Positions 2,066 through 64,000 of a stretch of DNA of 64,000 nt are shown here, one piece after another; within the stretch, counting starts at the first letter, position 1, and each line of letters starts with the position of its first letter. Origin of the DNA: a virus; IMG/VR virus record IMGVR_UViG_3300017782_004332, positions 40,926-104,925 of that record. One strand, 5' to 3'. Under the pieces are notes generated by a model. That model was not told the origin of the DNA. It searched no databases and saw nothing but the letters and a program-made list of their open reading frames with translations. Position numbers and translations under genes: made by a program.

Positions 2066-2073
2066 GATAGATA

Positions 2074-2538
2074 ATGACAGACTTTATACAAAATATTAAT
2101 TTAAGTTGGGATAGCACAGAAACTAATCCTGTACTAGCAGGCGACCTTGACACGAATAACAATAACATCACAAGTTCAAATAATGCTAATATTAATATTG
2201 TTCCTAATGGAGCAGGTCAACTAATCCTTGATACTGTTAAAGTAGTAGGTAATACTATTAGTACAGTTAACGGACAACCATTAACATTTAGTAATAACGT
2301 AACATTCTCAGGAACAGTAGAAACAGCAGGTGCAGGTACTCCTGTGCTAGAAAGTAGTACTGATATAGAACTTGATGCAACTAATAGAGTTATTATTAAA
2401 AACTCACCTTTTAAATTAACTTCGTATACTACAACTGCAAGAAACGCTCTTTCAGCACAAAACGGTGATATGATTTATAATTCTACTACAAATAAGTTTC
2501 AAGGATATGCAAACGGTTCTTGGGTCGACTTACATTAA
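2074..2538 (+). CDS. Short fibre-like structural protein
   Basis: A 154-residue relative of the preceding protein: it opens with an NINLSWDS segment, carries one NGAGQLILD-type repeat, and ends with DMIYNSTTNKFQGYANGSW, a C-terminal fibre-tip motif common in phage tail proteins. It lies 8 nt after the larger fibre gene and 11 nt before the protease gene, so the three probably form one late transcript. Likely a minor fibre or fibre-tip subunit; the role is inferred from composition and context. Confidence 0.65.
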   Translation: MTDFIQNINLSWDSTETNPVLAGDLDTNNNNITSSNNANINIVPNGAGQLILDTVKVVGNTISTVNGQPLTFSNNVTFSGTVETAGAGTPVLESSTDIELDATNRVIIKNSPFKLTSYTTTARNALSAQNGDMIYNSTTNKFQGYANGSWVDLH

Positions 2539-2549
2539 GGTAGGATATA

Positions 2550-4613: not shown

Positions 4614-4628
4614 TTTATAATAGTAGCA

Positions 4629-4634
4629 TAAATA
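4629..4634 (+). promoter_or_regulatory. Late-type promoter box (TAAATA)
   Basis: CATAAATACT with TAAATA 26 nt upstream of the ATG at 4661. A GAGGG ribosome binding site lies between. Confidence 0.6.
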
Positions 4635-4660
4635 CTTTTGAGCGAAACAGAGGGTATATT

Positions 4661-4939
4661 ATGGATTTTTTAACGTTTATCGGTGAAGTTGGTTTTCCTA
4701 TAGCAGGAGCAATCGCCGCAGGCGTATTTGTTTTCACAACATTAAAATTTATTCTAGCAAGTGTAACAGGATCTGTACAAGGTCTTAAAAATATTATCAA
4801 TGCACTAGACAATCGTGTGCAAACAATGAATAATGATCTAATTAAAATTGATGCCCTACTATCTCATGTAGTTGGGGTTAAACCTAACATAGAAAGATTA
4901 GCCGCGAACGAAGGCAAGGAAGATGCAAGGAGAGATTAA
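4661..4939 (+). CDS. Small membrane protein with GFPI motif, paralogue of the 5321 protein
   Basis: A 92-residue protein with a short N-terminal segment, a GFPIAGAIAAG motif starting one hydrophobic helix (about 10-35), and a polar helical region containing LDNRVQTMNNDLIKI. The 106-residue protein at 5321 has the same plan (GFPIVAAMGLG, then LDNDMIRLNTKL), so the two look like diverged duplicates. The plan recalls YvrJ/BhlA-type small membrane proteins, some of which are annotated as holins. A holin or membrane-anchor role is possible but unproven. It has its own late-type promoter. Confidence 0.6.
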   Translation: MDFLTFIGEVGFPIAGAIAAGVFVFTTLKFILASVTGSVQGLKNIINALDNRVQTMNNDLIKIDALLSHVVGVKPNIERLAANEGKEDARRD

Positions 4940-5122
4940 ATGATTTGGATGGACTACCTCGTAGAAAGTTTCCCAGACGGAAGTTTCACAGTTAAAGGTG
5001 ATTGGCCACAAGAAGTAATGGGCAAACAAAAAGATGGTGCCGACAAAGGTTATGCATTATATAAACCAGGTGACAAGTTTGTTGTTGACAACAACGGTAT
5101 TTTAAGGAAAGTAAACGCATGA
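4940..5122 (+). CDS. Small hypothetical protein
   Basis: A 60-residue soluble protein, mostly polar, with a DKFVVDNNGILRKV ending. Its ATG follows the previous stop directly and its end overlaps the next start by 4 nt (ATGA), so it is translationally coupled within a four-gene cluster. No known family recognised. Confidence 0.55.
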   Translation: MIWMDYLVESFPDGSFTVKGDWPQEVMGKQKDGADKGYALYKPGDKFVVDNNGILRKVNA

Positions 5123-5319
5123 AGAATTTTTATAGAACAGTAACAGGCCATAAACCAACTGACGATTTTTTGCAAAGACAAGGTATCTGGTACGATAGCG
5201 ATATGATTAAATCAGTTCTTATTGGTTTAGCAATAGGAGTTGCACTTGGATTCATTTGGGGATTTGGTGTAGGTGCTCCAGACTTTAGTGGACTCGTATC
5301 CACAGGAATAACAGGATAG
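5119..5319 (+). CDS. Small single-span membrane protein
   Basis: A 66-residue protein with a polar N-terminal half and one Gly-rich transmembrane helix (about 30-55, VLIGLAIGVALGFIWGFGVG). It starts in an ATGA overlap with the previous gene and ends 1 nt before the next start. Function unknown; it lies between the two GFPI paralogues and may work with them at the membrane. Confidence 0.6.
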   Translation: MKNFYRTVTGHKPTDDFLQRQGIWYDSDMIKSVLIGLAIGVALGFIWGFGVGAPDFSGLVSTGITG

Positions 5320-5320
5320 T

Positions 5321-5641
5321 ATGACATCAGAGTTAGCGGCGGCAATAAAAGACTTTGGCTTTCCTATTGTTGCGGCAATGGGTTTAGGTTACTTTGTCTA
5401 CTATGTTTGGCAATGGGTAACACTACAAGTTAAACCTGTTCTAAGTGATGCTAGTGCAACACTTATTAAATTAGTAGATCGTATTCGTATGCTAGACAAC
5501 GATATGATTAGACTAAACACAAAATTATCTATGATACTTGAATACTATCAGAAAAAAGGTATGGAACCTGATAAGGATCTAGAAAAAGTTATTACAAAAT
5601 ATCAATCTCAAAGTAATACACTTAAACAAGATAAAAAATAA
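5321..5641 (+). CDS. Small membrane protein with GFPI motif, paralogue of the 4661 protein
   Basis: A 106-residue protein with N-terminal GFPIVAAMGLGYFVYY forming one transmembrane helix, then a likely coiled coil (LDNDMIRLNTKLSMILEYYQ) and a Lys-rich tail. The layout matches the 4661 protein. It is the last + strand gene before the converging cyclase gene, whose stop codon is immediately adjacent. Holin-like or membrane-organising function is possible; no direct evidence. Confidence 0.6.
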   Translation: MTSELAAAIKDFGFPIVAAMGLGYFVYYVWQWVTLQVKPVLSDASATLIKLVDRIRMLDNDMIRLNTKLSMILEYYQKKGMEPDKDLEKVITKYQSQSNTLKQDKK

Positions 5642-7687
5642 TTATTTGGTTGTTGCTATAAAGACGCCGTTCCAGTCTTTAGGTAAGTCTTGTGTTTTCT
5701 GATATTTACAACGTTCAATCCACATATCATAATAAGCATCCATTTGTCCATCAAATTGTCCTTTAAGGTCTTTACACATTTTAATAGCAATATCAAAACG
5801 TTGATCTTTATATTCTTTGTGCATATGATCGTGTAGTTCTTTTGCCTTAGCATGATCTTTTATAACAATATCTAATACTGTCCATATACCTATTCCTACA
5901 CTCTTGCCTTTAACAGCAAGATCATCTACTTTTAAGTAGAAGAAATCATTCTTAGTTGCTTTATAAGTTGTTTCACCTACTAATAGCAAACATCCGTATT
6001 CTTTACACTTGCTTTCAATTCTTGCGGCTGTGCTGACGGCATCACCAAGTACATCGTAGGAGTGTCTTGCTGTCGACCCCATTTCTCCAAGGTAACCAAG
6101 TCCGGAGTTAATACCCGCTCCCATACCGATGGCTGGCCTTCCTTCTGCTGTAATTTTTTCATTAAACTTCTCCACTGCTCGTAGCATATTCAATCCAGTG
6201 CGGACTGCACTCTTAGGATGATCTGGATCATCAAGTGGTGCACCATGTACATGCATACTTGCATCTCCTATATACTTAATTATCATTCCGTTTTCGTTTA
6301 AAACAGGTAAAGTAATAGCGTCCATATATGAGTTCATAAGTGTTGTCAATCCTTTTACATCATCTCCAAAACTTTCACCCAAAGGAGTAAAGCCTCTCAG
6401 ATCACTGAAGCAGATTGAAATTTCTTTCTTCATGCCTTCTTTGATCAGTGCAGGATTTTCTTGTAGCATACGCACAACTGTTGGTGATGCATATCCTGCG
6501 AACTGTTTCTTAATTGCTTGTTTTTCAAAGAACTCTTTGGAAAATCGATTGAACACAGAATGGAAACCAACAATAGTAGTTACTAGTACTATCCAACTCC
6601 AATCCCATAACTGTAGATGCCCTATAAACGCTGTATAAGCACCGTACACAGGCGCTATGATTACTGTAAGCATAGTAGTACCAACGACCCAGTAAGGCGC
6701 TTTAAACGCTATTATAATTAGAATAAGACCTATAATAGTAGCAGTTATATACTCTAAAAACGTAGCATAATCAAAACGTACAATAGTATCCCCATTAATG
6801 ATAGTTTGGAGACTTGTGCCTATAAGTTCGTGTGCATATCGTTCTCCGTTTGGAGTAGCAATAATACTGCCTATACCTTCTGCTGTAGTTCCAATAATAA
6901 CTGTTTTGCCTGCAAATTGTGTGTAATCTTGTTCTGTTATACTGTAGGTAGGAAACTGCTTGTTCCAACGTAGCCATATCTGTCCATTTGCATCTGTTTT
7001 GATTGTGGCGTACTTTGGAATACGCATTGCAGTAATACCGCCTTCTTGCGTTTTAACTTGATAACTTGGATCTCCAACAGCAACTCTGATGGCTTCAATT
7101 GCTATAGCAGGATATGTTTCGTTGCCTACACGTACAATAAGTGGCATTCTACGTACAACCCCGTCTATCTCTGAACCTGTGTTTAAAACTCCAACACCGT
7201 CTGCATTTAATCCTAATAATTCTATTGGTCCTAACATGCCAGGCCATTCAAACAACCATGGCATAGGATCGCCTATCTTAGCAACACCTCGTGGTACAGA
7301 ATTCTTGTTTGCATTTCGCGAACCTACTTGTCCTATGACTACAGCATTACCTACTAATGCTTGAGCAAGTTCCATGTCACCACCAAGTCTATCTTCCTCT
7401 GAAAATAATATAGGCAGTACAATTACTCCTGCACCTGACTCACGTAACTTCCATATAACATCAGCGAGTACTGAACGTTTCCAAGGCCATTGCCCATACT
7501 GCTCGATCGCTTTTTCGTCTATCTCAAGTATGGCGATATCTTCGCTAACAACTGGAGTATCGTATTGTTGAACAACATCAAATGCTTTTAGTCTCAATAG
7601 TTGCTTAACATAAGGATCTGAAAATCCGTATATTGTAAGAAATGCTAAAGTAATCAGGGCGGTTGCCCAGTGGGTTACATATTTCAT
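5642..7687 (-). CDS. CHASE2 sensor - class III adenylate cyclase membrane protein
   Basis: About 681 residues: an N-terminal helix, an extracytoplasmic CHASE2 domain (about 25-295, with ILEIDEKAI, QWPWKR and DGVVRRMPL), three transmembrane helices (about 310-380), then a class III nucleotide cyclase. Metal-binding Asp429 (FSDLRGF) and Asp475 (KYIGDAS) are present. Lys471 and Asp545 form the adenine-specifying pair, so cAMP is the likely product. The transition-state Arg556 is kept, but the usual Asn before it is Ser552, which may lower activity. I place the start at the second Met because TAAATA lies exactly 5 nt upstream, the spacing seen at other genes here. It is one of four - strand genes and diverges from the curli-like operon. 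Class III cyclases with CHASE2 are bacterial sensors; a viral copy is unusual. Confidence 0.92.
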   Translation of the reverse strand: MKYVTHWATALITLAFLTIYGFSDPYVKQLLRLKAFDVVQQYDTPVVSEDIAILEIDEKAIEQYGQWPWKRSVLADVIWKLRESGAGVIVLPILFSEEDRLGGDMELAQALVGNAVVIGQVGSRNANKNSVPRGVAKIGDPMPWLFEWPGMLGPIELLGLNADGVGVLNTGSEIDGVVRRMPLIVRVGNETYPAIAIEAIRVAVGDPSYQVKTQEGGITAMRIPKYATIKTDANGQIWLRWNKQFPTYSITEQDYTQFAGKTVIIGTTAEGIGSIIATPNGERYAHELIGTSLQTIINGDTIVRFDYATFLEYITATIIGLILIIIAFKAPYWVVGTTMLTVIIAPVYGAYTAFIGHLQLWDWSWIVLVTTIVGFHSVFNRFSKEFFEKQAIKKQFAGYASPTVVRMLQENPALIKEGMKKEISICFSDLRGFTPLGESFGDDVKGLTTLMNSYMDAITLPVLNENGMIIKYIGDASMHVHGAPLDDPDHPKSAVRTGLNMLRAVEKFNEKITAEGRPAIGMGAGINSGLGYLGEMGSTARHSYDVLGDAVSTAARIESKCKEYGCLLLVGETTYKATKNDFFYLKVDDLAVKGKSVGIGIWTVLDIVIKDHAKAKELHDHMHKEYKDQRFDIAIKMCKDLKGQFDGQMDAYYDMWIERCKYQKTQDLPKDWNGVFIATTK

Positions 7688-7692
7688 ACTCA

Positions 7693-7698
7693 TATTTA
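7693..7698 (-). promoter_or_regulatory. Late-type promoter box for the cyclase (leaderless geometry)
   Basis: On the - strand TAAATA is followed by 5 nt (TGAGT) and the ATG at 7687. This TAAATA-N5-ATG layout recurs across the window. It implies transcription starting at the initiator codon. Confidence 0.55.
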
Positions 7699-7792
7699 CC
7701 TAGTCAGACCGTCAAATTTCCAACATTCTTGTTGTACAAATTATTTCGACCGTCAAAATTTTGTACCAGCATTATTTGTGGGGTGGCGTTGG
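7699..7792. promoter_or_regulatory. Divergent control region between cyclase and curli-like operon
   Basis: GACCGTCAAA occurs twice as a direct repeat (7707-7716 and 7748-7757, 41 nt apart). Between them is the palindrome TTGTACAA (7732-7739), echoed by TTTTGTACC at 7759. Such an array between divergent genes could be an operator for a shared regulator. No binding protein can be named. Confidence 0.4.
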
Positions 7793-7798
7793 TAAATA
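7793..7798 (+). promoter_or_regulatory. Late-type promoter box of the curli-like operon
   Basis: GGTAAATACG: TAAATA lies 16 nt upstream of the csgF ATG at 7815, with GGAGGG (7804-7809) as ribosome binding site. It puts the curli-like operon under the same signal as virion genes. Confidence 0.6.
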
Positions 7799-7814
7799 CG
7801 TATGGAGGGCAATA

Positions 7815-8285
7815 ATGCGTAATAACATAACATTTAGAGTAGTACCACTAATCGGACTATTAATCGTTACTTTAACAGCAAATTCTGTTGCTAGTGAACT
7901 AGTACATGAATTCAAGAATCCTTCCTTCTCAGGACAGGGTTATAGTAACCATGTCTTGTCAATAGAACAATTACAATTCCAACGTAAAAAAGAAGCACAG
8001 GAAAAGGCAGAGGCAGATGCGGCCAAGGCTAAGCGTGAAGCAGAAAGCACTACACTAGCAAAGTTCTTGAACAATGTGGAATCTCGAATTTATGCTCAAC
8101 TCTCTAAACAGTTAGTAGATAATATGTTTACTGACGATGGAGACACATCAGGCACTGCTGAGATTGAAGGTGCAACAATTTATTGGGTCAAAGATACTAC
8201 CTCGGATACTATTACTGTAACAATTACAAATGAAGACGGTACTACCACAGAGATAGTTGTTCCATTAAGCGGATTTGGATTTTAA
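7815..8285 (+). CDS. csgF: CsgF-like curli assembly factor
   Basis: About 156 residues with a signal peptide (about 1-30, ending NSVAS) followed by HEFKNPSFSGQGYSNH. This corresponds to the CsgF N-terminal segment FQFRNPNFGG, the part that plugs into the CsgG pore. A charged helical stretch rich in Lys, Glu and Ala follows, then a C-terminal beta region ending in SGFGF, as CsgF proteins end in an S-G-containing strand. CsgF couples export through CsgG to nucleation of curli at the outer membrane. The start at 7815 is chosen because of its GGAGGG site and because it begins a proper signal peptide; an in-frame upstream ATG at 7761 lacks both. It is immediately followed by csgG. Secretion-pore partnership is strongly supported by this pairing. 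Confidence 0.85.
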   Translation: MRNNITFRVVPLIGLLIVTLTANSVASELVHEFKNPSFSGQGYSNHVLSIEQLQFQRKKEAQEKAEADAAKAKREAESTTLAKFLNNVESRIYAQLSKQLVDNMFTDDGDTSGTAEIEGATIYWVKDTTSDTITVTITNEDGTTTEIVVPLSGFGF

Positions 8286-8289
8286 GAAA

Positions 8290-9324
8290 ATGAGTAAGAT
8301 ATTGGGTCTGTTTGTGTTATTAACACTACTAGGTGGCTGTGCGACTACTATGCCCGATTCTATGGTCAAAGATCCACAAGCGGCAAGAAGTCCTATTGCA
8401 AGTATTTTAAAAACAACACCTGAGTTAGACGGACCATTAATCACTATAGCACTTTATAGTTTTACAGATAAAACAGGACAACGTAAGCCTAGTCAAAATT
8501 TTAGTCAATTAAGTTCAGCAGTTACACAAGGTGCTGAAGTTTGGGTCATTGACGCACTACAAAAAGTAGGTAATGGAACTTACTTTACAGTTTTAGAAAG
8601 AATAGGATTAGATAATTTAGTAAAAGAAAGGCAATTAATTAGATCAACAAGGGAGATATATGAAGGCAAGAAAGGGCAGAATAAATTAAAACCAATGAAG
8701 TTTGCAGGTTTAATTTTAGAAGGCGGTGTTGTTGGTTATGACTCGAACATAACCAGTGGTGGCACAGGAGCAAGATACTTTGGTATCGGTGCTAACACAC
8801 AATATCGTACTGACAAAGTTACAGTTGCAATAAGAATTGTGAGTGTACAAACTGGAGAAGTATTATTAAGTGTAGCCACTGAAAAAACAATCGCCAGTTA
8901 TTCGTCCGGAGCGGATGTATTTAGGTTTCTTGATTTAGGGACAAAAGCATTAGAAATTGAGGCTGGTGCGGCAATCAATGAACCGACCAATTATGCTGTG
9001 AGGTCCGCTATTGAAGCGGCTATAGTTGAATTGGTGAAAAATGGAGAAATAAAAGGTCTTTGGAAGTTTAAAGGAAAAGTGTACAAAGAAAAAGTTGTAG
9101 AGGTGCCGAACCAACACAATGAAGTCAAAGTAGATACTCCTTTACCAAACCTCCGCCCACTGCCAGACGTTGAGGCGTTTAAAAAGTGGCCGGGTCAGAC
9201 TTTGTATTGTTCAGAGGATAATCTGTGTATACCATCAGATGTTGCTGTGATGCAGTTCAAGTATGAAAGACTGAGACAAGAAAACAAAGAAAACAAAGAT
9301 AGCGAGGATAATAATGATGAATAA
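8290..9324 (+). CDS. csgG: CsgG outer-membrane curli secretion channel
   Basis: A 344-residue lipoprotein with lipobox LLGGC (Cys17). The mature part follows E. coli CsgG closely: LITIALYSFTDKTGQRKP, VLERIGLDNLVKERQ, GGVVGYDSNITSGGTGARY, FGIGANTQY, SVQTGEVLLSV and VFRFLDLG. CsgG forms a nine-subunit pore that exports curli subunits across the outer membrane. A Pro-rich, charged extension of about 80 residues follows the usual end. The ATG at 8290 gives the clean lipoprotein signal and lies just past the csgF stop; the next gene overlaps its end by 11 nt. Csg partners CsgE, CsgC and CsgD are not visible here. Confidence 0.95.
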   Translation: MSKILGLFVLLTLLGGCATTMPDSMVKDPQAARSPIASILKTTPELDGPLITIALYSFTDKTGQRKPSQNFSQLSSAVTQGAEVWVIDALQKVGNGTYFTVLERIGLDNLVKERQLIRSTREIYEGKKGQNKLKPMKFAGLILEGGVVGYDSNITSGGTGARYFGIGANTQYRTDKVTVAIRIVSVQTGEVLLSVATEKTIASYSSGADVFRFLDLGTKALEIEAGAAINEPTNYAVRSAIEAAIVELVKNGEIKGLWKFKGKVYKEKVVEVPNQHNEVKVDTPLPNLRPLPDVEAFKKWPGQTLYCSEDNLCIPSDVAVMQFKYERLRQENKENKDSEDNNDE

Positions 9325-10021
9325 ATCATTTGCAATAAGAAATATCCTTTTTGTGGCTATGTTAATCTTTATTTCACCGGTGCAGGCGAATGACATTTAC
9401 ATTCAACAGTCAGGTGACAATTTGGATTTAGATATATCACAAGACGGACAAAACAACGTAATCGGTACATCACAAACTGGTGTGACTCTTACCGGTAACG
9501 CCATGACGTTTAACATTGACCAAATTGGTGGTGCTAACGTTGTATCAGCAATAGTTAAAGGTGTAACTTACACAGGTAATATTGATCTTACTGGTGACAG
9601 TAATGATGTAGCATTACTCTGTGATAGTGCAGGAGCAGGAAACTGTGATACTGTAAGTTTGAGTATTGACATAACTGGTTCAAGTGCAGATATTAATGTA
9701 AGTGTAGGTGAAGCGGCAGACGCAGAAACCTTCACTGGTACAATAGATATCACAAGTGGTGCATCTGAAACAGTTACACTAACAGTAGACGGTAAAAGTG
9801 CAATAGCAGATATTGACATTTCAAACAGTTTAGGTAGTGCAGGTAATACAGCAGTGATTGACATTAATGATGATGGCGATGTCAACGGACACACTTTAAC
9901 ACACAGTCATACAGGAGATGGCGGATTGATTAATATTACGCAGAGCGGGTTATACGATAATATAATTAATCTTACAACCAGTGGTGACAGTGCTGATATC
10001 GACATAACGCAGGACGATTAA
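9314..10021 (+). CDS. Secreted curlin-like fibre subunit
   Basis: About 235 residues with a signal peptide cleaving near SPVQA-ND, then an Asp/Asn/Gly/Thr-rich, nearly Lys-free region with curlin-type repeats: IQQSGDNLDLDISQDGQNN, FNIDQIGGANV, ITQSGLYDNI and DITQDD. Curlins are built of repeats with regularly spaced Gln, Gly and Asn that stack into an amyloid beta-solenoid. It overlaps csgG by 11 nt and is the natural export substrate of that pore. It is more acidic and less regular than CsgA and could correspond to CsgA or the nucleator CsgB. Start could be either of two adjacent ATGs. Confidence 0.75.
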   Translation: MMNKSFAIRNILFVAMLIFISPVQANDIYIQQSGDNLDLDISQDGQNNVIGTSQTGVTLTGNAMTFNIDQIGGANVVSAIVKGVTYTGNIDLTGDSNDVALLCDSAGAGNCDTVSLSIDITGSSADINVSVGEAADAETFTGTIDITSGASETVTLTVDGKSAIADIDISNSLGSAGNTAVIDINDDGDVNGHTLTHSHTGDGGLINITQSGLYDNIINLTTSGDSADIDITQDD

Positions 10022-10022
10022 C

Positions 10023-11129
10023 ATGCTAAAACATGTTCTCATACATACCGTCCTCTTATTTGGTTTTTCATTCCCTGCCCTTGCGACTATTGGCGATGTT
10101 ATCCAACAAGAAGGTAACGCTGTCATTGAACGTGAGGCAGGAGAAATAGTTACAAGCCAAAAAGATACTGATGTGTTTAGTATGGACACAGTATTAACAC
10201 AGCAAGGAGCAACTTCTATTCAATTTATAGACGATACAAGAGTTGACGTTACTCCGCATAGTAAATTAGTAATAGACGATTTTGTTTATGATCCTAATTC
10301 TAAAACAGGTGCTCTGTCGTTAAAAGCATCTTTAGGAACTGTTAGATACGCAAGTGGACAAATAGCAAAAAATTCAAGACAAAATGTCAAGATAAAAACA
10401 CCAACAGCAGTGATTGGTGTTAGAGGAACAGATTTTACCATGACCGTCGATGAGACTGGTAGTACTATGGTAATCCTACTGCCCAGTTGTACAACAAATG
10501 GGATATGTATAGTAGGAGAAATTTCAGTGGAGTCAGACGTGGGTATAGTAATACTCAATCAGGCCTTCCAAGTTACTTCTGTTGACACTCCTAAGAGTGC
10601 TCCACTGAAACCCTTATTGTTAGATCCAACTAATTTGATCATTAATAATATGTTGATTATACGCAAACCTGTGTATGACGATGAACAACAAGAATATGAA
10701 AGAGTTAGAAAGTTAGGCGACTTCTTAGGCGTTGACTTTTTATCCTTTGATGAACTTAATACAAACTACTTTGCAGAAAGTGAAAAAGGTCTTTGGATGA
10801 CCGATTTAGACATAGACTTCTTAGGTCATAACTTTCTTGCAAACGTATTAGATCAAATTAATCAAGCATTAGCAAGACTTATGCGTGGAGCATTAGACTC
10901 AAGACAAAAGGGTATACAGTTAGGTAAAGATCCAGAAACAGGAATAGAATTGTATGATCAAAACCCAGACTGGGTATTAAGACGTGATGACGGATTAGGA
11001 AACTTTTATGAATTACGTTTAGATCAACAGTATGGTTATAATATTAATATGCAACAGAACGATTTTGAATACAGAGACTACCAACTTGGAGATGGACAAA
11101 ATGAAATTGACATTGTCCAAACACAATAA
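10023..11129 (+). CDS. Exported FecR-domain protein
   Basis: A 368-residue protein with signal peptide (about 1-22, ending PALA), then a FecR domain at about 30-150: AVIEREAG, the DTRVDVTPHSKL region, and the hallmark TPTAVIGVRGTDF. A 200-residue C-terminal region has no recognised family. FecR domains sense or relay signals in the periplasm or bind envelope partners. It sits between the two curlin-like genes (1 nt after the first, 1 nt overlap with the next), so it is likely part of the same surface structure or its control. In bacteria FecR-type and CHASE2-type genes are, to my knowledge, often neighbours; here a CHASE2 cyclase lies across the divergent promoter. Confidence 0.88.
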   Translation: MLKHVLIHTVLLFGFSFPALATIGDVIQQEGNAVIEREAGEIVTSQKDTDVFSMDTVLTQQGATSIQFIDDTRVDVTPHSKLVIDDFVYDPNSKTGALSLKASLGTVRYASGQIAKNSRQNVKIKTPTAVIGVRGTDFTMTVDETGSTMVILLPSCTTNGICIVGEISVESDVGIVILNQAFQVTSVDTPKSAPLKPLLLDPTNLIINNMLIIRKPVYDDEQQEYERVRKLGDFLGVDFLSFDELNTNYFAESEKGLWMTDLDIDFLGHNFLANVLDQINQALARLMRGALDSRQKGIQLGKDPETGIELYDQNPDWVLRRDDGLGNFYELRLDQQYGYNINMQQNDFEYRDYQLGDGQNEIDIVQTQ

Positions 11130-12592
11130 TGTTTGAGAGATTTATTATAAGATTGGCACTTGTATTATTTGTACTTATGGTGATGTTAGCATCTAAACCT
11201 GTACAGGCTAATGACGCATTTATATATTATAAAAATAGTGGTACCTATGCTACTACAAGCCAGTACAACAACTTAAAAACAGAACTTGAAGATGCAGGCT
11301 TTACTGTTTCAAGTAGCACAAGTGGTACTGTAAGTTCAAGTGATGTGTCAGGTCAGGACCTTGTGATTGATATCACAGGTGGTTCAAACTGTGGTAGTAC
11401 TTGTAAATCAGTGTATGACAGTTATGTTAGTGGTGGTGGTAAATTAGTTATAGTAGGAACCTACGGAGCAACCAACAGAAATAGCAGTATAGAAGCACTG
11501 ATCGAAACTAAGATGAGTGTAGGAAGTTTCACTTTAGGTGGAGGTTGTAGTACTTGTTATAGTTCAGTTGCTGTAGGAAATTACGCTTCAACAGGTGTAG
11601 CAGGTGAGAATGTTTTACCAGGTACAGACCACTATATGTACAGCGTATCTGGTGGTACCGCAATGGCTAATAACTCCACCAGTAGTTCTAATATAAGAAT
11701 GTGGCACAAATGGGACTATGGTAGTAATGGTGGAAGTGTAGCAGTTACTTTTGGTTATGGACAATTTCTTTCAACTCACACGTATGCAAGTAATATGAAT
11801 GACTTCTTGTATCGAGCAATGCAAGAAGAAGGATTAATTACAACAGCGTCTTATACTTCAAGCATCAGTAACGCACAGACCACACAAATGACAACATCAA
11901 GAGGTGTAACACACAATGGTAATGGAATATACATTAATCAAGTAGGCAACAGTAATTCACTTACTATTGTACAAGACGGCAATGATAACTTAATAGCAGG
12001 TGTTGGTAGTACAACAAACAGTTTAGTTGATGCAGATATTACAGGAAATAACAACACTACTACACTAAAACAAAAAGGTAACAACAATGTTATGTTGTTT
12101 GATATTACAGGCGATTCTAATACGACAACTGTTGATCAAGGTAGTACATCAGGTGCAGATGATAATAGAGTTGAGTTTGATATTAATGGCGACACTAATA
12201 CAACAAGTATAACACAAAATCATAACAACGGTATAGGAACTAATGGACACTTCTTTGCATTAGATTTAGATGGTGACAACAACAATGTTTTAGCAAGTCA
12301 ACTCAATGACGGAGATAAAAAAGCATTCCTAAGTGTACAAGGTGATGATAACGACATTGATCTAATACAACAAGGTGCAGGTTCGCACTATGCAGAAATT
12401 GCTGTTGGCAGTGATCAAACTGTTGACATTACACAAGACGGCAGTGGACAACATAACACTTCAGTGTCTATGTCAGGGTTTAGTGCAACACTTGACCTTG
12501 ATCAATCTGGTTCAACAAATCAAACATATTCAATAAACCAATCTTGTATAAATGCAAATGGTTGTGGTACAACTACTGTAACACAACAATAA
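11129..12592 (+). CDS. Secreted two-part protein: Rossmann-like head plus curlin-repeat tail
   Basis: A 487-residue protein with signal peptide (ending PVQA-ND, like the 9314 protein). Residues about 28-240 look like a compact alpha/beta domain (DAFIYYKNSG, LVIDITGG, KLVIVGTYG) of flavodoxin or GATase1-like pattern with paired Cys (CGSTC, CSTC). From about 265 on it turns into Gln/Asn-rich curlin-like repeats (INQVGNSNSLTIVQDG, LKQKGNNN, VDITQDGSGQHN, LDLDQSGSTNQ). It probably joins the fibre through the repeats and displays the head domain. Head function is unknown. It ends the operon; the next gene has its own promoter box. Confidence 0.75.
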   Translation: MFERFIIRLALVLFVLMVMLASKPVQANDAFIYYKNSGTYATTSQYNNLKTELEDAGFTVSSSTSGTVSSSDVSGQDLVIDITGGSNCGSTCKSVYDSYVSGGGKLVIVGTYGATNRNSSIEALIETKMSVGSFTLGGGCSTCYSSVAVGNYASTGVAGENVLPGTDHYMYSVSGGTAMANNSTSSSNIRMWHKWDYGSNGGSVAVTFGYGQFLSTHTYASNMNDFLYRAMQEEGLITTASYTSSISNAQTTQMTTSRGVTHNGNGIYINQVGNSNSLTIVQDGNDNLIAGVGSTTNSLVDADITGNNNTTTLKQKGNNNVMLFDITGDSNTTTVDQGSTSGADDNRVEFDINGDTNTTSITQNHNNGIGTNGHFFALDLDGDNNNVLASQLNDGDKKAFLSVQGDDNDIDLIQQGAGSHYAEIAVGSDQTVDITQDGSGQHNTSVSMSGFSATLDLDQSGSTNQTYSINQSCINANGCGTTTVTQQ

Positions 12593-58127: not shown

Positions 58128-58138
58128 GTCCGTTTGCA

Positions 58139-58144
58139 TAAATA
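58139..58144 (+). promoter_or_regulatory. Late-type promoter box (TAAATA)
   Basis: GCATAAATACTT, 21 nt before the ATG at 58166, with TAGGAG between. Confidence 0.6.
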
Positions 58145-58165: not shown

Positions 58166-60616
58166 ATGAAAACAATGGATTTTAGAAAATTAATAAACAC
58201 AGTTGATACCCTGTATACAGAAGCAAAAAAAGAACCTGAAAGGTTATCAATTGATAATGCACTAGAGCATGTTAAAGATATTCAGTGGACAGAACCAACA
58301 CCAAGCGGTAATGAATACAGCATTGCTAATAACGTAGCATTTAAAGACAAAGACCTTACTGATAATGCAGTAAGATTAGAATTATTCAAAAGCGAAATGA
58401 AGCAATCACCTGCAAGATTATTAGGTGAAATTGCACAACGCATTAAACCATCAACAGATGCACAAATTGAAATTGCTATGATGATTGGTAAAATTGGTTC
58501 TAAAATGGCCAACAACGAACCTACTTCTAAAACAGAACAAACACTTGCTATCGAAAGTATTAAGTCTGCAATACGTGGAATGAAAATTGAAAGATCCGCT
58601 GATAACACTCCCTACAAAGACGACAGCGAAGAAGATTTCAAAGACGAGTCACAGTCTTTTAAAAGTGATATTTCTAAAGCCATTGAAGAACAAGACCAAC
58701 TTTCAGAAGAATTTAAAATCCTATGGGACAGAGAACCAATTAAACGTGGTAAAGGAATGTATCAAGCAATTCAGTTTCACAACGGCACTATAAGTTATGT
58801 TCCGATGGCTGTAGATGGTAGACCAATTTGGACTGGAAAAGTACAATACGGTTTTCAAATGAAACAACTTTTAGACTTAGGTTTCGGCCTTCCGGCTTAC
58901 AATTATGGTAGTGGAGATTTTGATCCTGACTTCCAAGGTCAACCAGATGGGTATACAGATGATGGTGCTGGCGAATACAAAGGAACACATAAAAAAGTTG
59001 GTAGTCGTTGGGTAGCACTTGACCAATACAAACATTGGAAAGACAGTGACGATGGCAACTTCTATACTGATCGAAATGACTCACTTTCTGATCTAAGTTT
59101 TGCTGAATGGAAACAAGCAGGGCAAATTAGAAATATTAATCACGAACTAAAAATGTTAGCATTAGAAATTGAAGCAATTCCATTACGTGATAAGAAAGAA
59201 GCATACGAAGCAATCTTAACTGTTAATAGAGCATACCGTGGAGATGCAGAAGCATTTGATAAGATGGTTGACATGATCGAAGCAGGTACTGACATTCAAG
59301 TTATTATTGCTGGTAATGCATTACGTGGTAAGAGAGAATTACAAGATCTAATTAACTCCGACGAAATGCAACGTGCATTAACAAGCAAATCACATGCTGA
59401 GAGAATGGCAGAGATTATTAAAGACGAAGCAACCGAAACAGCAAAAGAGATCAAAGGTGATGCAGGATCTTACAGCACAAATGATCAAGGACAAACTTCA
59501 TTCAAGGGCAACAAAGACATGGCCAAGAATGCACAAGCAAGTCAATCAGGAGGCAACACAAGTGGAAGAAATACTTCAAGATCAACTAACGCTTTAAATT
59601 CATTATCAAAAGATGACTTGCCTGATATTACACTTGACAGCATAGACAACAATAGTGAACAACTTGACGAAAAGATAGTTCATCAAAGAAGAATTCAATC
59701 TAATGGTAATACTGTAAACTTTAATATTGATAAATCAAAGCCAGTAACTAAAGCAAAATATCAAGGTAAGAGTTTTGAAATATATGCAGATCCTGAAGAA
59801 ATTGAAAAATGGTTAGGAACTCGTTATAGTAACGGATGGACAATCGATGACATTGAAAAACAAGATGGAACTACAAGTACTACAAGTAAAGTAACTGGCA
59901 ACCCAGTTAAAGTAGGGACACAAACTGCTAAAGTTGGTACACAAGGTGGTACTGCTAAAAGTGGTGCAGGTAAAATTAATCCAGAAAAATGGGATGAAAT
60001 TTCTGCATTGATTAAACAAGCAGTTGATGATCAAGGCAAAGTTAATAAAACTGAAAAAGATGCAGAGCCAGAGCAAGGTGCTAACAAAGGTGAAAAACTA
60101 GATCCTAATAGTGACGAAGCAAAACAGTTGTTTAAAGATCTTGAATTAGAAAGTATTGAACCTGTTGCTGAAGGTGCTGTTAAAAAAGCATTAGAAGATG
60201 ATGCTGAAAACCTAAGCAGAGAAGAGTTTATTAAAAAACATGGCGACGCAGAATTCTTTGACAACTACAATGGTGTTGAAGAAAGTTGGTTTAACGGACT
60301 AGATGATGTTACATTAAACGGTGACGAGTTTTATGAAAACTTTGGTTGGATCGGTGACAATGAAGAAAACATCGACGAAGCAGAGTATCAAGGACGTAAA
60401 GTTAAACTAAACAAACCAATGCGTGGTGATGTTAAAAAGTTTAAAGTGTACGTAAAAAACCCAAAAGGTAACGTAGTTAAGGTTAACTTCGGTGATCCAG
60501 ATATGAAAATTAAAAGATCAAACCCAAAAAGACGTAAAAGTTTCAGAGCAAGACACAACTGTGATTCTCCGGGTCCGAAGCACAAAGCACGTTACTGGTC
60601 ATGCAGAAAATGGTAA
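58166..60616 (+). CDS. Large internal-virion-type protein with Cys-basic tail
   Basis: An 816-residue hydrophilic protein. The start (MKTMDFRKLINTVDTLYTEA) resembles N termini of T4-like core and internal proteins. The middle contains an acidic region, a QPDGYTDDGAGEYKGTHKK stretch and low-complexity Gly/Thr/Lys repeats (KVGTQTAKVGTQGG). The C-terminal 75 residues (EAEYQGRKVKLNKPMRG, then RKSFRARHNCDSPGPK and KARYWSCRKW) are a module common in marine phage proteins. Probably packaged in or used to build the prohead; the exact role is unknown. Confidence 0.6.
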   Translation: MKTMDFRKLINTVDTLYTEAKKEPERLSIDNALEHVKDIQWTEPTPSGNEYSIANNVAFKDKDLTDNAVRLELFKSEMKQSPARLLGEIAQRIKPSTDAQIEIAMMIGKIGSKMANNEPTSKTEQTLAIESIKSAIRGMKIERSADNTPYKDDSEEDFKDESQSFKSDISKAIEEQDQLSEEFKILWDREPIKRGKGMYQAIQFHNGTISYVPMAVDGRPIWTGKVQYGFQMKQLLDLGFGLPAYNYGSGDFDPDFQGQPDGYTDDGAGEYKGTHKKVGSRWVALDQYKHWKDSDDGNFYTDRNDSLSDLSFAEWKQAGQIRNINHELKMLALEIEAIPLRDKKEAYEAILTVNRAYRGDAEAFDKMVDMIEAGTDIQVIIAGNALRGKRELQDLINSDEMQRALTSKSHAERMAEIIKDEATETAKEIKGDAGSYSTNDQGQTSFKGNKDMAKNAQASQSGGNTSGRNTSRSTNALNSLSKDDLPDITLDSIDNNSEQLDEKIVHQRRIQSNGNTVNFNIDKSKPVTKAKYQGKSFEIYADPEEIEKWLGTRYSNGWTIDDIEKQDGTTSTTSKVTGNPVKVGTQTAKVGTQGGTAKSGAGKINPEKWDEISALIKQAVDDQGKVNKTEKDAEPEQGANKGEKLDPNSDEAKQLFKDLELESIEPVAEGAVKKALEDDAENLSREEFIKKHGDAEFFDNYNGVEESWFNGLDDVTLNGDEFYENFGWIGDNEENIDEAEYQGRKVKLNKPMRGDVKKFKVYVKNPKGNVVKVNFGDPDMKIKRSNPKRRKSFRARHNCDSPGPKHKARYWSCRKW

Positions 60617-60622
60617 TAAACA

Positions 60623-60970
60623 ATGCTTCTAAAAGAACTATTCGATAATAACGTATCAGAAGATACATCAGATGTACTAATAGACGATATTAAATTTTAT
60701 ATCGAACAGCAGGATGACCTGCACAAAGAGTACTTCCTTCCAGCAGTAGATGAACTAAAAAGAAAAAATCTTTTAGACGACGATTCATGTTATGAATGTT
60801 TCATGCCTATGGTTGAAGCAGGCTGTGAAAATTATCAAGAACAATATAAATTACCAGGTGTTACAGAAGAAATATATACCGACGAATTGAAAGAAATGAT
60901 CTGCAGAAGAATTGCAGAAACATGTATCGATCTAATCAAAGACGGCCAATACGATCCTAAGGAGGTATAA
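60623..60970 (+). CDS. Acidic protein with CTS-like start
   Basis: A 115-residue acidic helical protein with four Cys (YECF, GCEN, ICRR, TCID). It begins MLLKELFDNN, similar to the starts of its right-hand neighbours. It overlaps the next ATG by one base. Possibly packaged; function unknown. Confidence 0.5.
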   Translation: MLLKELFDNNVSEDTSDVLIDDIKFYIEQQDDLHKEYFLPAVDELKRKNLLDDDSCYECFMPMVEAGCENYQEQYKLPGVTEEIYTDELKEMICRRIAETCIDLIKDGQYDPKEV

Positions 60971-61671
60971 TGCTAGTCAAGGAGTTGTTACTTGAAGCAC
61001 AACCTGTAAAGACCGCAGTAGTAACTTGGGGAAGAATGAATCCTCCTACTACTGGTCATCAAAAGGTGATCGATGTTGTTAAACAATATTCTCAAAGGTT
61101 TCAAGGCGATCCAATACTATTTCTTAGTAAATCACAAAAACCTAAAACAGACCCATTATCATTTGCAGAAAAGTTACATTTTACACAAGAAATGTTTAAT
61201 GTTCCAGTTGATAGAAATACCAGTGTAAAAACAATTATTCAAATGTTTCAGACACTACAAGGCAAAGGATATAGTAATATTGTTCTAGTTGCAGGAAGTG
61301 ACAGAGTACAACAATATCAAGATTTAATTAATAAGTATAATAACAAGCCTGATACAAAAGGTGTAATACCTTTTACATTTAAAAATGCTAAAGTAGTAAG
61401 CAGTGGCGAACGTGATCCAGATGCTGAAGGCATTGCTGGTATGAGTGCAAGTAAATTAAGAGCATTTGCTAGTGAAGGCAACTTTGAAGGTTTTAAACAA
61501 GGTGTTTCAGGAAACGAAGCACTTGCTAAACAAATGTATCAACGTGTGCGTCAAGGTATGGGAATTACCGAAGAAGCGGCTGGTGTTGGCATAATTACTA
61601 AACAAAATAGTACTAAAGATGTTAAGAAAGGTACTATGAAAAAAATGATGAAGGGACTTAAATTGATATGA
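60970..61671 (+). CDS. Nucleotidyltransferase (NMNAT/cytidylyltransferase fold) with capsid-targeting-like start
   Basis: A 233-residue protein: MLVKELLLEAQ, then VVTWGRMNPPTTGHQKVID with the HxGH-type nucleotide-binding motif (TTGH), VLVAGSDRVQQYQ, and GMSASKLRAFA near the ISSTxxR position. The fold joins a nucleotide to a phosphate substrate, as in NMN adenylyltransferase. Similar proteins occur in marine T4-like phages. The N-terminal KELLLEA recalls the T4 capsid-targeting sequence QEFIAEA. AAGGAGG ribosome site. Confidence 0.78.
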   Translation: MLVKELLLEAQPVKTAVVTWGRMNPPTTGHQKVIDVVKQYSQRFQGDPILFLSKSQKPKTDPLSFAEKLHFTQEMFNVPVDRNTSVKTIIQMFQTLQGKGYSNIVLVAGSDRVQQYQDLINKYNNKPDTKGVIPFTFKNAKVVSSGERDPDAEGIAGMSASKLRAFASEGNFEGFKQGVSGNEALAKQMYQRVRQGMGITEEAAGVGIITKQNSTKDVKKGTMKKMMKGLKLI

Positions 61672-62180
61672 GAGCAACAGAATTCTTAATCGAAGGTAAG
61701 CAAGAAATCATGCATATTATTAATGCAATCAAAACGGTTGCTGGTAGAGTGCAAGAAGTAAAACAATATTTAGAAGGAGCAGTTGGTAAACCTTTGAATC
61801 AAATTAGTTCACAGGATATTTACGATAAACTTATTAAAAAAGGTGTTCCGTTTGCTAGAGCAGGTGCTAGAATGGGTAGCCAAGAAGTAGCAAAAATGGG
61901 TTACAGTATGAGTACAATGCTAACCTATGCAAAATGGAATAAAAGCGGTGTAGCACAGGAAATAGGTAAAATGTTACCTGATATGGTATATGCAACTGAT
62001 CCAGAAATGAGAAAAAACATTGCTATTAAATTAAACATTTCAGAACAAGACATTGATGCTGTTATAGATGCGTATGAAGATTTAGCAGACAAATTTCCTA
62101 AGGCGGCACAGTTAATGGAAAAAGGTGATTTCGAAGGTGCACTAGATCAAGTTGTTGCAAGGATGTTACAAGGATTATAA
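61668..62180 (+). CDS. Helical protein with capsid-targeting-like start
   Basis: A 170-residue, entirely helical protein starting MRATEFLIEGKQE, very like T4 internal-protein starts (QEFIAEA). The rest (VGKPLNQISSQDIYDKLIKKG, ATDPEMRKNIAIKL) matches no family I know. It overlaps the previous gene by 4 nt. A packaged internal protein is the best guess. Confidence 0.55.
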   Translation: MRATEFLIEGKQEIMHIINAIKTVAGRVQEVKQYLEGAVGKPLNQISSQDIYDKLIKKGVPFARAGARMGSQEVAKMGYSMSTMLTYAKWNKSGVAQEIGKMLPDMVYATDPEMRKNIAIKLNISEQDIDAVIDAYEDLADKFPKAAQLMEKGDFEGALDQVVARMLQGL

Positions 62181-62183
62181 TTC

Positions 62184-62420
62184 ATGACCAAGGACGAAAT
62201 AACAACATTAAAACGATTAGCAGGAATTACAAATAGTTTTAAAGGTCAGCAACCTGTTAACTTCGAAAATATAACCTATAGTGCTCAAGCAACTAAAGAT
62301 AAAGAAAAGAAACTAGGATTAAAACCTGGAGATAAAGATTGGTTTAAACTTTGGTTTGCAAGACCATTAATGACAGGCGGAAATTTACCACAAGGATTTA
62401 GAGGAAGAAAAAAGAAATGA
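62184..62420 (+). CDS. Small basic hypothetical protein
   Basis: A 78-residue protein with KRLAGITNSF, LKPGDKDWFKLWF and a basic end GFRGRKKK. The LxRLAGI start is a common motif of small marine phage proteins in this region. It overlaps the next ATG by 4 nt. Confidence 0.5.
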   Translation: MTKDEITTLKRLAGITNSFKGQQPVNFENITYSAQATKDKEKKLGLKPGDKDWFKLWFARPLMTGGNLPQGFRGRKKK

Positions 62421-63355
62421 GTCAAACAGATAATACTCCTACAGAAATTTATCTAGACATGGACGGTGTCCTTGCTGACTTCTTTGCAGAATATGCTAAA
62501 CTTGCTGGTGTAACTTCAGGTAGTTATAGAGATATTCCGCCTGCAAAAGTTGACCCTACATTAAACAAAATGATAGGTACAGACTTTTTTGCAAGATTAC
62601 CAATGTTTCCGTCAGCACAAAAGTTAATGCAACTAGTTTTAAATTACACAGATCATTACAGTATTTGTTCAAGTCCGTTACGCGGGGATCATAAAAACTC
62701 TGAACATCATAAAAGAGTTTGGATATCTAAGCATCTCAACCCACAACCTAAAGATATTGTTATTACAGGTAGAAAAAGTAAGTGGGCAACCCAACCGGAC
62801 GGTACCCCGAACATTCTCATAGACGATAGGGGCAAAAACATAAGTGACTGGATTGCGGCTGGAGGATACGGAATTAAATATCAAGCAGACGAAGATTCAT
62901 TAGAAAGTGTTAAAATGGGGTTGGACAGATTCTTCAGGGGAGATGTTGAAGAACCAAAAACACCTGAAAGTTATTCAAGACAAGAACTTCCACAAGTTAC
63001 ATCCGAATTACTAAACAACATACCTCATACTGTAGAAACAGTAGATATGGAGCATCTTTGTCCAGTACAAAAAGAAATTATAAAAGAAAATTTAGTAAAA
63101 CAATTTAAACGTCTTAAAGAAAACAAATTTAGACCTATTGTAGTTGACAAAGACTATCGTATTATTAATGGACATCACAGATACGAAGTGCTAAAACAAT
63201 TGAATAGCGGCTATGCTGAAGTTGCTCGTATTCCTTTTACGCTTGAAGAAGTAAAAAGTGTAATGGAAAAATGGAGTGCAAAATATAAAAAAAGTATAAA
63301 CTGTAGCAATCCAAAAGGGTTCAGTCAAAAGGCTCATTGTGCTGGAAAGAAATAA
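62417..63355 (+). CDS. Fusion of HAD 5'-nucleotidase and ParB-like domain
   Basis: A 312-residue protein. Residues about 10-175 form a deoxyribonucleotidase-like HAD domain (IYLDMDGVLADFF, SICSSPLRGD, ILIDDRGKNISDW). Residues about 205-285 resemble the ParB N-terminal/sulfiredoxin-like domain (FRPIVVDKDYRIINGHHRYEVLKQL). The end SINCSNPKGFSQKAHCAGKK is a two-Cys tag found on many marine phage proteins. The first domain would dephosphorylate nucleotides; the second may hydrolyse CTP or bind DNA. The fusion is unusual. Confidence 0.75.
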   Translation: MSQTDNTPTEIYLDMDGVLADFFAEYAKLAGVTSGSYRDIPPAKVDPTLNKMIGTDFFARLPMFPSAQKLMQLVLNYTDHYSICSSPLRGDHKNSEHHKRVWISKHLNPQPKDIVITGRKSKWATQPDGTPNILIDDRGKNISDWIAAGGYGIKYQADEDSLESVKMGLDRFFRGDVEEPKTPESYSRQELPQVTSELLNNIPHTVETVDMEHLCPVQKEIIKENLVKQFKRLKENKFRPIVVDKDYRIINGHHRYEVLKQLNSGYAEVARIPFTLEEVKSVMEKWSAKYKKSINCSNPKGFSQKAHCAGKK

Positions 63356-63357
63356 TC

Positions 63358-63558
63358 ATGAGGATTGTAGAGGTATTAGAAAACTTCGCTGATGGCAAGA
63401 AAAAAGGCAAATCAAGACCAGGGCGTGTAAAAAAGTCAGGTGCTAGTTGTAACGGATCGGTTACAAGTTTAAGAGCAAAAGCAAAAAAGGCTAGTGGAGA
63501 ACGTGCTAAAATGTATCACTGGTGTGCTAACATGAAGTCGGGGAAAAAGAAAAAATGA
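63358..63558 (+). CDS. Small basic two-Cys protein with CTS-like start
   Basis: A 66-residue very basic protein: MRIVEVLENFADGKKKG, then GASCNGSVTSLRAKAK and YHWCANMKSGKKKK. The Cys-containing module is common in marine T4-like phages. DNA binding in the capsid is plausible. The ATG at 63358 follows the previous stop closely; it overlaps the next ATG (ATGA). Confidence 0.6.
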   Translation: MRIVEVLENFADGKKKGKSRPGRVKKSGASCNGSVTSLRAKAKKASGERAKMYHWCANMKSGKKKK

Positions 63559-64000
63559 GATCACAAGAATTTGTAACAGAACTTGTGACTGGTACCAGTA
63601 ATAAAGAACACCTTATAAACCGTGCCAACAAAGTTGCTGACATTTGTGCTACTATGGGCGACAAGCCTTTATTGTATAGACAGGTTCGTAATACTGGTAT
63701 GTACGGCGACAAAGCACTTATTATCAAAGCCACACCAAGAAGCATATACAAAGACGAAAAATTATTAGGCTCAGGAAACTTAATGCAACCTGTTGTGTTA
63801 AAAAAACTCGATATTGAGCATGTTGTGTTTGCCACAATGGATCCACATCCTGGCACACAAGGCAAGTTTGGAGCAAACTATTTTATGGTTCCAATTGGAG
63901 CATACAAAGTTTACAGTAGTCCGCAGGTAAAGGACTTGGGTACAGAAAATTCATACAATGATAAAGATCGCAAAATGTTTGCGCCGCCTAGTGATGAAGA
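63555..64000 (+). CDS. Hypothetical protein with CTS-like start (runs off the window)
   Basis: The frame opens at ATG 63555 and stays open to the end of the window (149 residues so far). MRSQEFVTELVTG strongly resembles T4 internal-protein starts. The body (LLYRQVRNTGMYGDKALIIKA, VFATMDPHPGTQGKFG, YFMVPIGAYKVYSSP) looks like a folded alpha/beta or ART-like domain, but no catalytic motif can be confirmed without the rest. Confidence 0.6.
   Translation, partial: MRSQEFVTELVTGTSNKEHLINRANKVADICATMGDKPLLYRQVRNTGMYGDKALIIKATPRSIYKDEKLLGSGNLMQPVVLKKLDIEHVVFATMDPHPGTQGKFGANYFMVPIGAYKVYSSPQVKDLGTENSYNDKDRKMFAPPSDE

Follow-up and report, generated by a model that had tools for sequence, protein, structure and literature searches.

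Capsid-targeting-like N termini and protease-motif-bordered modules on a run of proteins in a marine viral record

The stretch of DNA considered here (the window) is the final 64 kb, positions 40,926 to 104,925, of the 104,925-base viral record IMGVR_UViG_3300017782_004332. Near its end (60623-64000, in window coordinates) this marine T4-like phage has a run of genes, one of them for a nucleotidyltransferase, whose unrelated proteins tend to begin with the same short tag. Judging from relatives, the tag is part of a modular scheme that is widespread in ocean phages, is probably processed by the head protease, and would serve to carry proteins in the particles. The favored reading, to which we assign a probability of roughly three in four, is that T4-style capsid targeting has spread to many proteins and become coupled to protease-released, polyprotein-like modules. 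Judged by their sequence, the window N termini appear to be the capsid-targeting sequence (CTS) of T4 internal proteins in diverged form, M-basic-x-x-E-hydrophobic..[LIV]-x-E.

How would such a system work? Late in infection, tagged proteins would be drawn into the prohead core. A gp21-type prohead protease would cut after [ILVM]-x-E, taking off the tag, and cuts at further such sites would set free short modules carried on the same chain. The processed nucleotidyltransferase would remain beside the DNA inside the head, as would other proteins and modules A to C (small, basic peptides with Cys, described below), and all of these would pass along with the DNA into the next cell. For the tagged proteins in general, packaging is quite likely and proteolytic processing likely, while delivery into the host is plausible by analogy with the T4 internal proteins and Alt. 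For the window's own phage, we infer targeting, cleavage, injection, and any enzyme action, such as the proposed one on nucleotides or NAD.

The N-terminal tag and its distribution

A preliminary description of this DNA had claimed five capsid-targeting-like N termini, and all five are present at ATG starts of plus-strand open reading frames (ORFs): MLLKELFDNN (60623), MLVKELLLEA (60970), MRATEFLIEG (61668), MRIVEVLENF (63358), and MRSQEFVTEL (63555). Within the interval, M[RKL]xxE[FLVI] occurs at 5 of 7 ORF starts, those at 62184 and 62417 (a HAD/NT5C-ParB protein) being without it. In the whole record it stands at 13 of 153 starts versus 4 of 570 internal methionines. A scan of the record's N termini, which the description had called for, found the motif concentrated in the interval (5/7) and in a second such cluster, within the first 9 kb of the record (6/16), versus 2 of 130 starts elsewhere. 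A stricter, T4-like form with [FLV][LIVF]x[ED] is found at four starts in the record, three of them within the interval. The P values for these three comparisons (1.2e-6, 3.8e-5, and 0.00023, respectively) are only indicative, because the patterns were defined after the sequence had been read.

For the same reason, related viruses serve as an independent test of the motif. In more than 250 related viral loci, M[RK]xx[EDQ][FLIVW] occurs at 479 of 1,980 starts versus 44 of 9,461 internal methionines, making it 52 times commoner at starts. In these contigs the motif is found on dozens of unrelated proteins. When 96 tagged proteins, all dissimilar to one another, are aligned, MKxxExxxE is the sole N-terminal consensus. 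In four window proteins a cut is predicted directly after the tag (LLE/A, LIE/G, VTE/L, and VLE/N; a slash marks a predicted cut or module border). In the 60623 protein, the nearest predicted cut motif is VSE at residues 11 to 13.

How close is this tag to that of T4? The T4 N termini are MKTYQEFIAEA (IPII and IPIII), MKTFKEFTST (IPI), MELITELFDED (Alt), and MLKEQLIAEA (gp22). Packaging of IPIII requires only its first 10 residues, of which positions 4 and 7 count for targeting and 8 and 10 for processing, and the tag alone directs a foreign protein into the head (PMC9026906). The internal proteins and Alt, which share this targeting, are injected (PMC9391042; T4 record note). T4 and the marine proteins have in common a short N-terminal peptide that bears hydrophobic residues and, at residues 8 to 10, [LI]-x-E, and a set of small basic proteins plus an enzyme. 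They differ in that the marine tag has diverged, with E at position 5, that the marine system has far more cargo families, and that its chains bear extra protease-type sites and mobile C- or N-terminal modules. The stretch up to the final E is also shorter in the window tags, by about one residue (MRATEFLIE/G, MLVKELLLE/A), and the tag of the homologous enzyme of cyanophage S-SZBM1, MRFRQFIIE/A, is intermediate between the two styles. Four window tags (MLVKELLLE/A, MRATEFLIE/G, MRSQEFVTE/L, and MRIVEVLE/N) fit a CTS of about 10 residues with hydrophobics and [LI]-x-E, the last two with V at P3 instead of L or I; the 60623 protein fits only in part.

The second tagged cluster lies outside the window, at record 1818-8968 (L001), with the starts MLIEEF, MLLVEL, MKIVEV, MKIQEL, MRISEL, and MRLFEF. 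Several of its proteins are small with basic ends. The gene at 7253-8614 beside it matches a family of virion structural proteins, phrog_14154.

Virion-borne relatives of the nucleotidyltransferase

Do proteins of this kind occur in particles? The nucleotidyltransferase (phrog_3041) has relatives in 522 phage records, mainly cyanophages. Mass spectrometry of purified particles has revealed a cytidylyltransferase in S-SM1 (PMC3037559), S-CREM2 (PMC10665884), and S-SZBM1 (PMC9146016), and an NMNAT-like protein in S-SCSM1 (PMC9602691); a virion nucleotidyltransferase is also reported for S-CBWM1, in the S-SCSM1 paper and in a second source. This virion-detected family (T4-GC190) is homologous to the window protein at 60970-61671. 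As far as their available parts go, these earlier papers call the enzyme packaged or a possible contaminant and name no targeting signal on it, and none of the cyanophage papers searched discusses such a signal. Both virion-detected orthologues whose sequence was read have T4-like N termini, MKNFSSFLTEA (S-CREM2 gp154) and MRFRQFIIEA (S-SZBM1). Further orthologues begin with MKKFSAFLNEA (ACG-2014b), MKKFSEIIEAR (Melnitz), and MKTLKELLRKK (HTVC008M).

In the roughly two-thirds of the S-CREM2 genome covered, a T4-type regular expression, which was written after the sequences had been viewed and which T4 IPIII itself fits, matches 4 of 13 non-structural virion proteins versus 0 of 125 undetected ones (P = 4.9e-5). 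The matches are a SAM hydrolase (MKDFDSFLEE), a kinase (MKRFDAFLTE), gp13 (MKDLHSFLTE), and the cytidylyltransferase gp154 (MKNFSSFLTE). With a looser expression the counts are 4 of 13 versus 4 of 125. An equal frequency of the motif on cytoplasmic phage enzymes had been named as grounds for refutation; these figures, together with the 2 of 130 starts elsewhere in the window's record, speak otherwise. The claim of packing into the capsid finds good support by homology with the virion-detected nucleotidyltransferases; what had been overlooked are tails with protease-site borders.

As a separate observation, the Cas9-like virion protein gp12 of S-CREM2 (L104:7704-10313) has a CTS-like RFASFMAEA at about residues 18 to 26 and not at its annotated start, which may be misannotated.

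Modules, protease-type borders, and cargo

Besides tags, the window proteins bear short mobile tails, modules A, B, and C and a D-like one, that are common to hundreds of viral contigs. The features of the gene run are as follows.

58137..58144, +, late-type promoter-like CATAAATA (pattern scan), 29 b upstream of the start of ORF 58166
58166..60616, +, 816-aa ORF, start MKTMDFRKLINTVDTLYTEAKKE, with C-terminal module C (phrog_7595, E = 3e-11)
60380..60613, +, module C, AEYQGRKV...RARHNCDSPGPKHKARYWSCRKW, after the predicted cut IDE/A (sequence; free-standing in Kolga gp56 and HTVC111P gp26)
60623..60970, +, ORF for a 115-aa protein, signal-like N terminus MLLKELFDNN
60970..60996, +, capsid-targeting-like N terminus MLVKELLLE/A of the nucleotidyltransferase (sequence; orthologues MKNFSSFLTE/A, MRFRQFIIE/A, MKKFSAFLNE/A)
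60970..61671, +, cytidylyltransferase/NMNAT-like nucleotidyltransferase, 233 aa (phrog_3041, E = 5e-49)
61573..61668, +, tail EAAGVGIITKQNSTKDVKK after ITE/, module D-like by eye (sequence)
61668..62180, +, 170-aa protein, MRATEFLIE/G (ORF; PHROG scan)
62184..62420, +, 78-aa protein without the motif, basic end FRGRKKK (sequence)
62417..63355, +, HAD 5' nucleotidase (NT5C)-ParB-like fusion, no N-terminal tag (Pfam, PHROG)
63275..63352, +, module B tail SAKYKKSINCSNPKGFSQKAHCAGKK (sequence; also on tagged cyanophage S-SM2 protein SSM2_108)
63358..63558, +, 66-aa protein consisting of tag MRIVEVLE/ and module A (NFADGKKKGKSRPGRV...MYHWCANMKSGKKKK) (sequence)
63382..63555, +, module A proper, predicted three-helix core, two Cys (structure model, core pLDDT about 85)
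63555..64000, +, MRSQEFVTE/LV... protein, ending at the record end (complete, 244 aa, on L005)

Module A occurs on at least 585 viral contigs, and a tblastn search found it in no cultured phage record. It forms the C-terminal end of 112 of 117 complete proteins, on partners as unrelated as HAD nucleotidase, nucleotidyltransferase, and Cu/Zn superoxide dismutase (SOD). Module C is the C-terminal end of all 142 complete carriers, window ORF 58166 among them; module B is found at the end of window ORF 62417 and of the S-SM2 protein SSM2_108; and module D lies no more than 25 residues from the N terminus in 73 of 95 proteins. Modules A to C are small, basic, and Cys containing. A PDB search for structural homologues of module A found none (best E about 9), and the structure model of module C (pLDDT 44) was too poor for use. 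Module D is also present in a cultured 469-kb jumbo phage, Sinorhizobium phage Phosso (PV764938.1, 439853-439960).

What joins these modules to their carriers? The prohead-protease motif [ILVM]-x-E/ stands at the border of module A in 78 of 104 cases, of C in 89 of 90, and of D in 55 of 59 (where border and tag signals are not independent, because the residues upstream of D are the tag itself). P1 is nearly always E, and P3 is I, L, V, M, or F in 0.78 (A), 1.00 (C), and 0.97 (D) of distinct contexts versus a background of 0.26, with low frequencies of these residues at P2 and P4. On the sequence level, this is the pattern of the T4 head protease. NT5C domains have [ILVM]xE within 26 aa upstream in 33 of 41 distinct contexts, versus 0.36 for random 24-mers. 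With such protease-site borders, the tails point to a modular, polyprotein-like system.

Module C itself gives an independent indication that cutting at the predicted site would yield a working unit. In Kolga (a siphovirus by name) and HTVC111P it is a small protein of its own, beginning M/AKYQGR or M/AKYKGR (M/AKYQGRTVKLNKP in the siphovirus), and longer carriers show E/AEYQGR exactly where the free-standing form begins. Free-standing module C or a relative is seen near terminase or RNR genes in phages of 31 to 53 kb: HTVC111P (L271), CRP-3 (L272), and Kolga (L273). In a first regular-expression test, only 9 of 122 module C proteins matched the MRxxE form; a number carry the T4 form MKTFxxYLxEA instead. 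A position-specific scoring matrix built on positions 2 to 13 of module A and D proteins was set aside, as module D contaminates positions 9 to 13 and tagged neighbors sit in the control set. In viral loci, ENFADGKKK also occurs upstream of another domain, ETIEETIRKQGDKYVIYSKDGKKKLGTY, which looks like an exchange of the junction itself.

Is the protease there? Peptidase_S77 (gp21 type) is found in 11 of the 24 long module-carrying records searched, including G001 (113 kb, locus L019), which carries a nucleotidyltransferase orthologous to the window's.

The cargo is diverse. When the 96 tagged proteins were scanned with Pfam and PHROG, the matches were to cytidyltransferase, NT5C, Cu/Zn and Fe/Mn SOD, pterin-4a-carbinolamine dehydratase, GNAT, the polyvalent-protein domain LPD23, and ParB-like and peptidoglycan-active domains; the majority match no family. 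Some SOD proteins are multidomain chains, such as that of L154, where a module D-like start is followed by NT5C, then Cu/Zn SOD, and finally an end resembling lysozyme, with ISE/ and VNE/ between (by eye). Cu/Zn SODs in marine phage chains (L060:3355-3909, L154:3989-5989, L067:38-1060, and L111:418-1335) are preceded by a Cys-rich peptide, CPRTKAxxCxC..[IV][ST]E/[AGS], plus a tag or module D.

A linked zincin-like metallopeptidase is a common, not universal, theme of polyvalent proteins; Pfam found no metallopeptidase in the window proteins or in the set of 96 tagged ones. Like the polyvalent proteins of Iyer et al. (2017; PMC5512222), which are multidomain, join unrelated enzyme domains, and are predicted to be packaged and injected, the NT5C-ParB-like fusion (62417-63355) holds unrelated domains in one chain, and LPD23 is shared with the tagged cargo. 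The differences are that zincin-like metallopeptidases were proposed there for processing, whereas the marine chains begin with a CTS-like tag and bear the prohead-protease motif at domain and module borders. Apart from Iyer et al., literature searches on virion-borne phage SOD and on the prohead protease in connection with polyvalent proteins turned up nothing of relevance.

To return to the gene run, ORF 58166 heads it and a single CATAAATA at 58137 precedes it; NATAAATA is the consensus of T4-like late promoters. In the 60623 family, conservation falls mostly on E5 and a DD motif, with a linker of variable length between, and E5 is retained in members down to 12% identity. The nucleotidyltransferase matches Pfam CTP_transf_like slightly below the family cut-off (E = 5.5e-4). 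An NT5C relative (L010) starts with MRLFEISNN, and the 66-aa 63358 protein is basic and internal-protein-like. An ADP-ribosyltransferase-like assignment for 63555-64000, where LYR and EVIL resemble T4 Alt by eye, was dropped when a PDB sequence search and Pfam gave no support. A PADLOC scan returned nothing notable. Elsewhere in the window, at 7761-12592, a row of ORFs with signal peptide- or lipoprotein-like starts and polar Asn/Thr/Gln-rich ends is, by eye, possibly a phage-borne curli-type set.

Alternative explanations and meaning

Several observations weigh against T4-style targeting coupled to released modules. The regular expressions were picked after looking, and the related contigs are not independent of one another. 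S-SZBM1 proteins 191 and 192, clearly CTS-like, are absent from the detected virion proteins, and several S-CREM2 virion proteins of unknown function lack the motif. The authors of the S-SCSM1 paper (PMC9602691), and those reporting on S-CBWM1, caution that some enzymes may be carry-over in the CsCl fraction. A hydrophobic P3 is missing from 22% of module A borders. Peptidase_S77 was not found on the incomplete 105-kb record, one of 13 of the 24 long records without a match, which may be fragments.

What else could the tag be? Perhaps the proteins are packaged as structural or DNA-condensing head components that never enter the cell, their enzymes stored or vestigial. Modules A to C would suit this, resembling head or DNA-binding peptides, as would the virion structural gene (phrog_14154) beside the second cluster. 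We think it unlikely, since T4 internal proteins and Alt, likewise targeted, are injected (PMC9391042), and SODs, nucleotidyltransferases, and a nucleotidase are part of the cargo. A shade less probable still, the N-terminal motif may be a helix that docks not to the capsid core but to some other assembly or compartment (tail, membrane, or host target). The tag does depart from T4, with E at position 5 and often R at position 2, but orthologous nucleotidyltransferases with T4-like tags occur in virions, and the prohead-protease motif with which the tag closes is seen again at module borders.

The last alternative is start-site bias, in which overlapping ATGA starts and A-rich second codons produce M[RK] and the remainder is chance or shared ancestry. 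Several interval ORFs do overlap the preceding stop codon, and R or K at position 2 is partly expected. However, E5, the hydrophobic residue 6, and [LI]xE are left unexplained, just 2 of the 130 other starts match, and the motif recurs with its consensus on 96 mutually dissimilar proteins. In a partial test, bias was not upheld, the motif being commoner at starts than at internal methionines and tied to S-CREM2 virion content; this explanation is very improbable.

Capsid targeting coupled to modules thus remains the favored reading. A bolder version, more apt to fail than to hold, is a portable capsid-import and release code in marine T4-like phages. A tag and mobile, highly conserved modules A to D joined by prohead-protease sites might let almost any protein, SODs included, be loaded as a polyprotein, cut in the head, and delivered with the DNA, the freed modules acting as DNA-binding or anti-defense peptides.

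The CTS and the virion nucleotidyltransferase had each been described before, as had the concept of polyvalent proteins; a literature search covering few subscription journals found no mention of the tag on virion enzymes of marine phages or of the grammar of protease sites. If true, a sequence rule would predict which of the many unknown proteins encoded by abundant ocean phages are carried in the particle, and the repeated, so far unexplained finds of nucleotidyltransferase in cyanophage virions would be accounted for. T4 internal proteins and polyvalent proteins would be brought together, and a testable list of candidate first-minute effectors would follow. In laboratory strains, the portable tags could also be put to use for loading phage heads with proteins.

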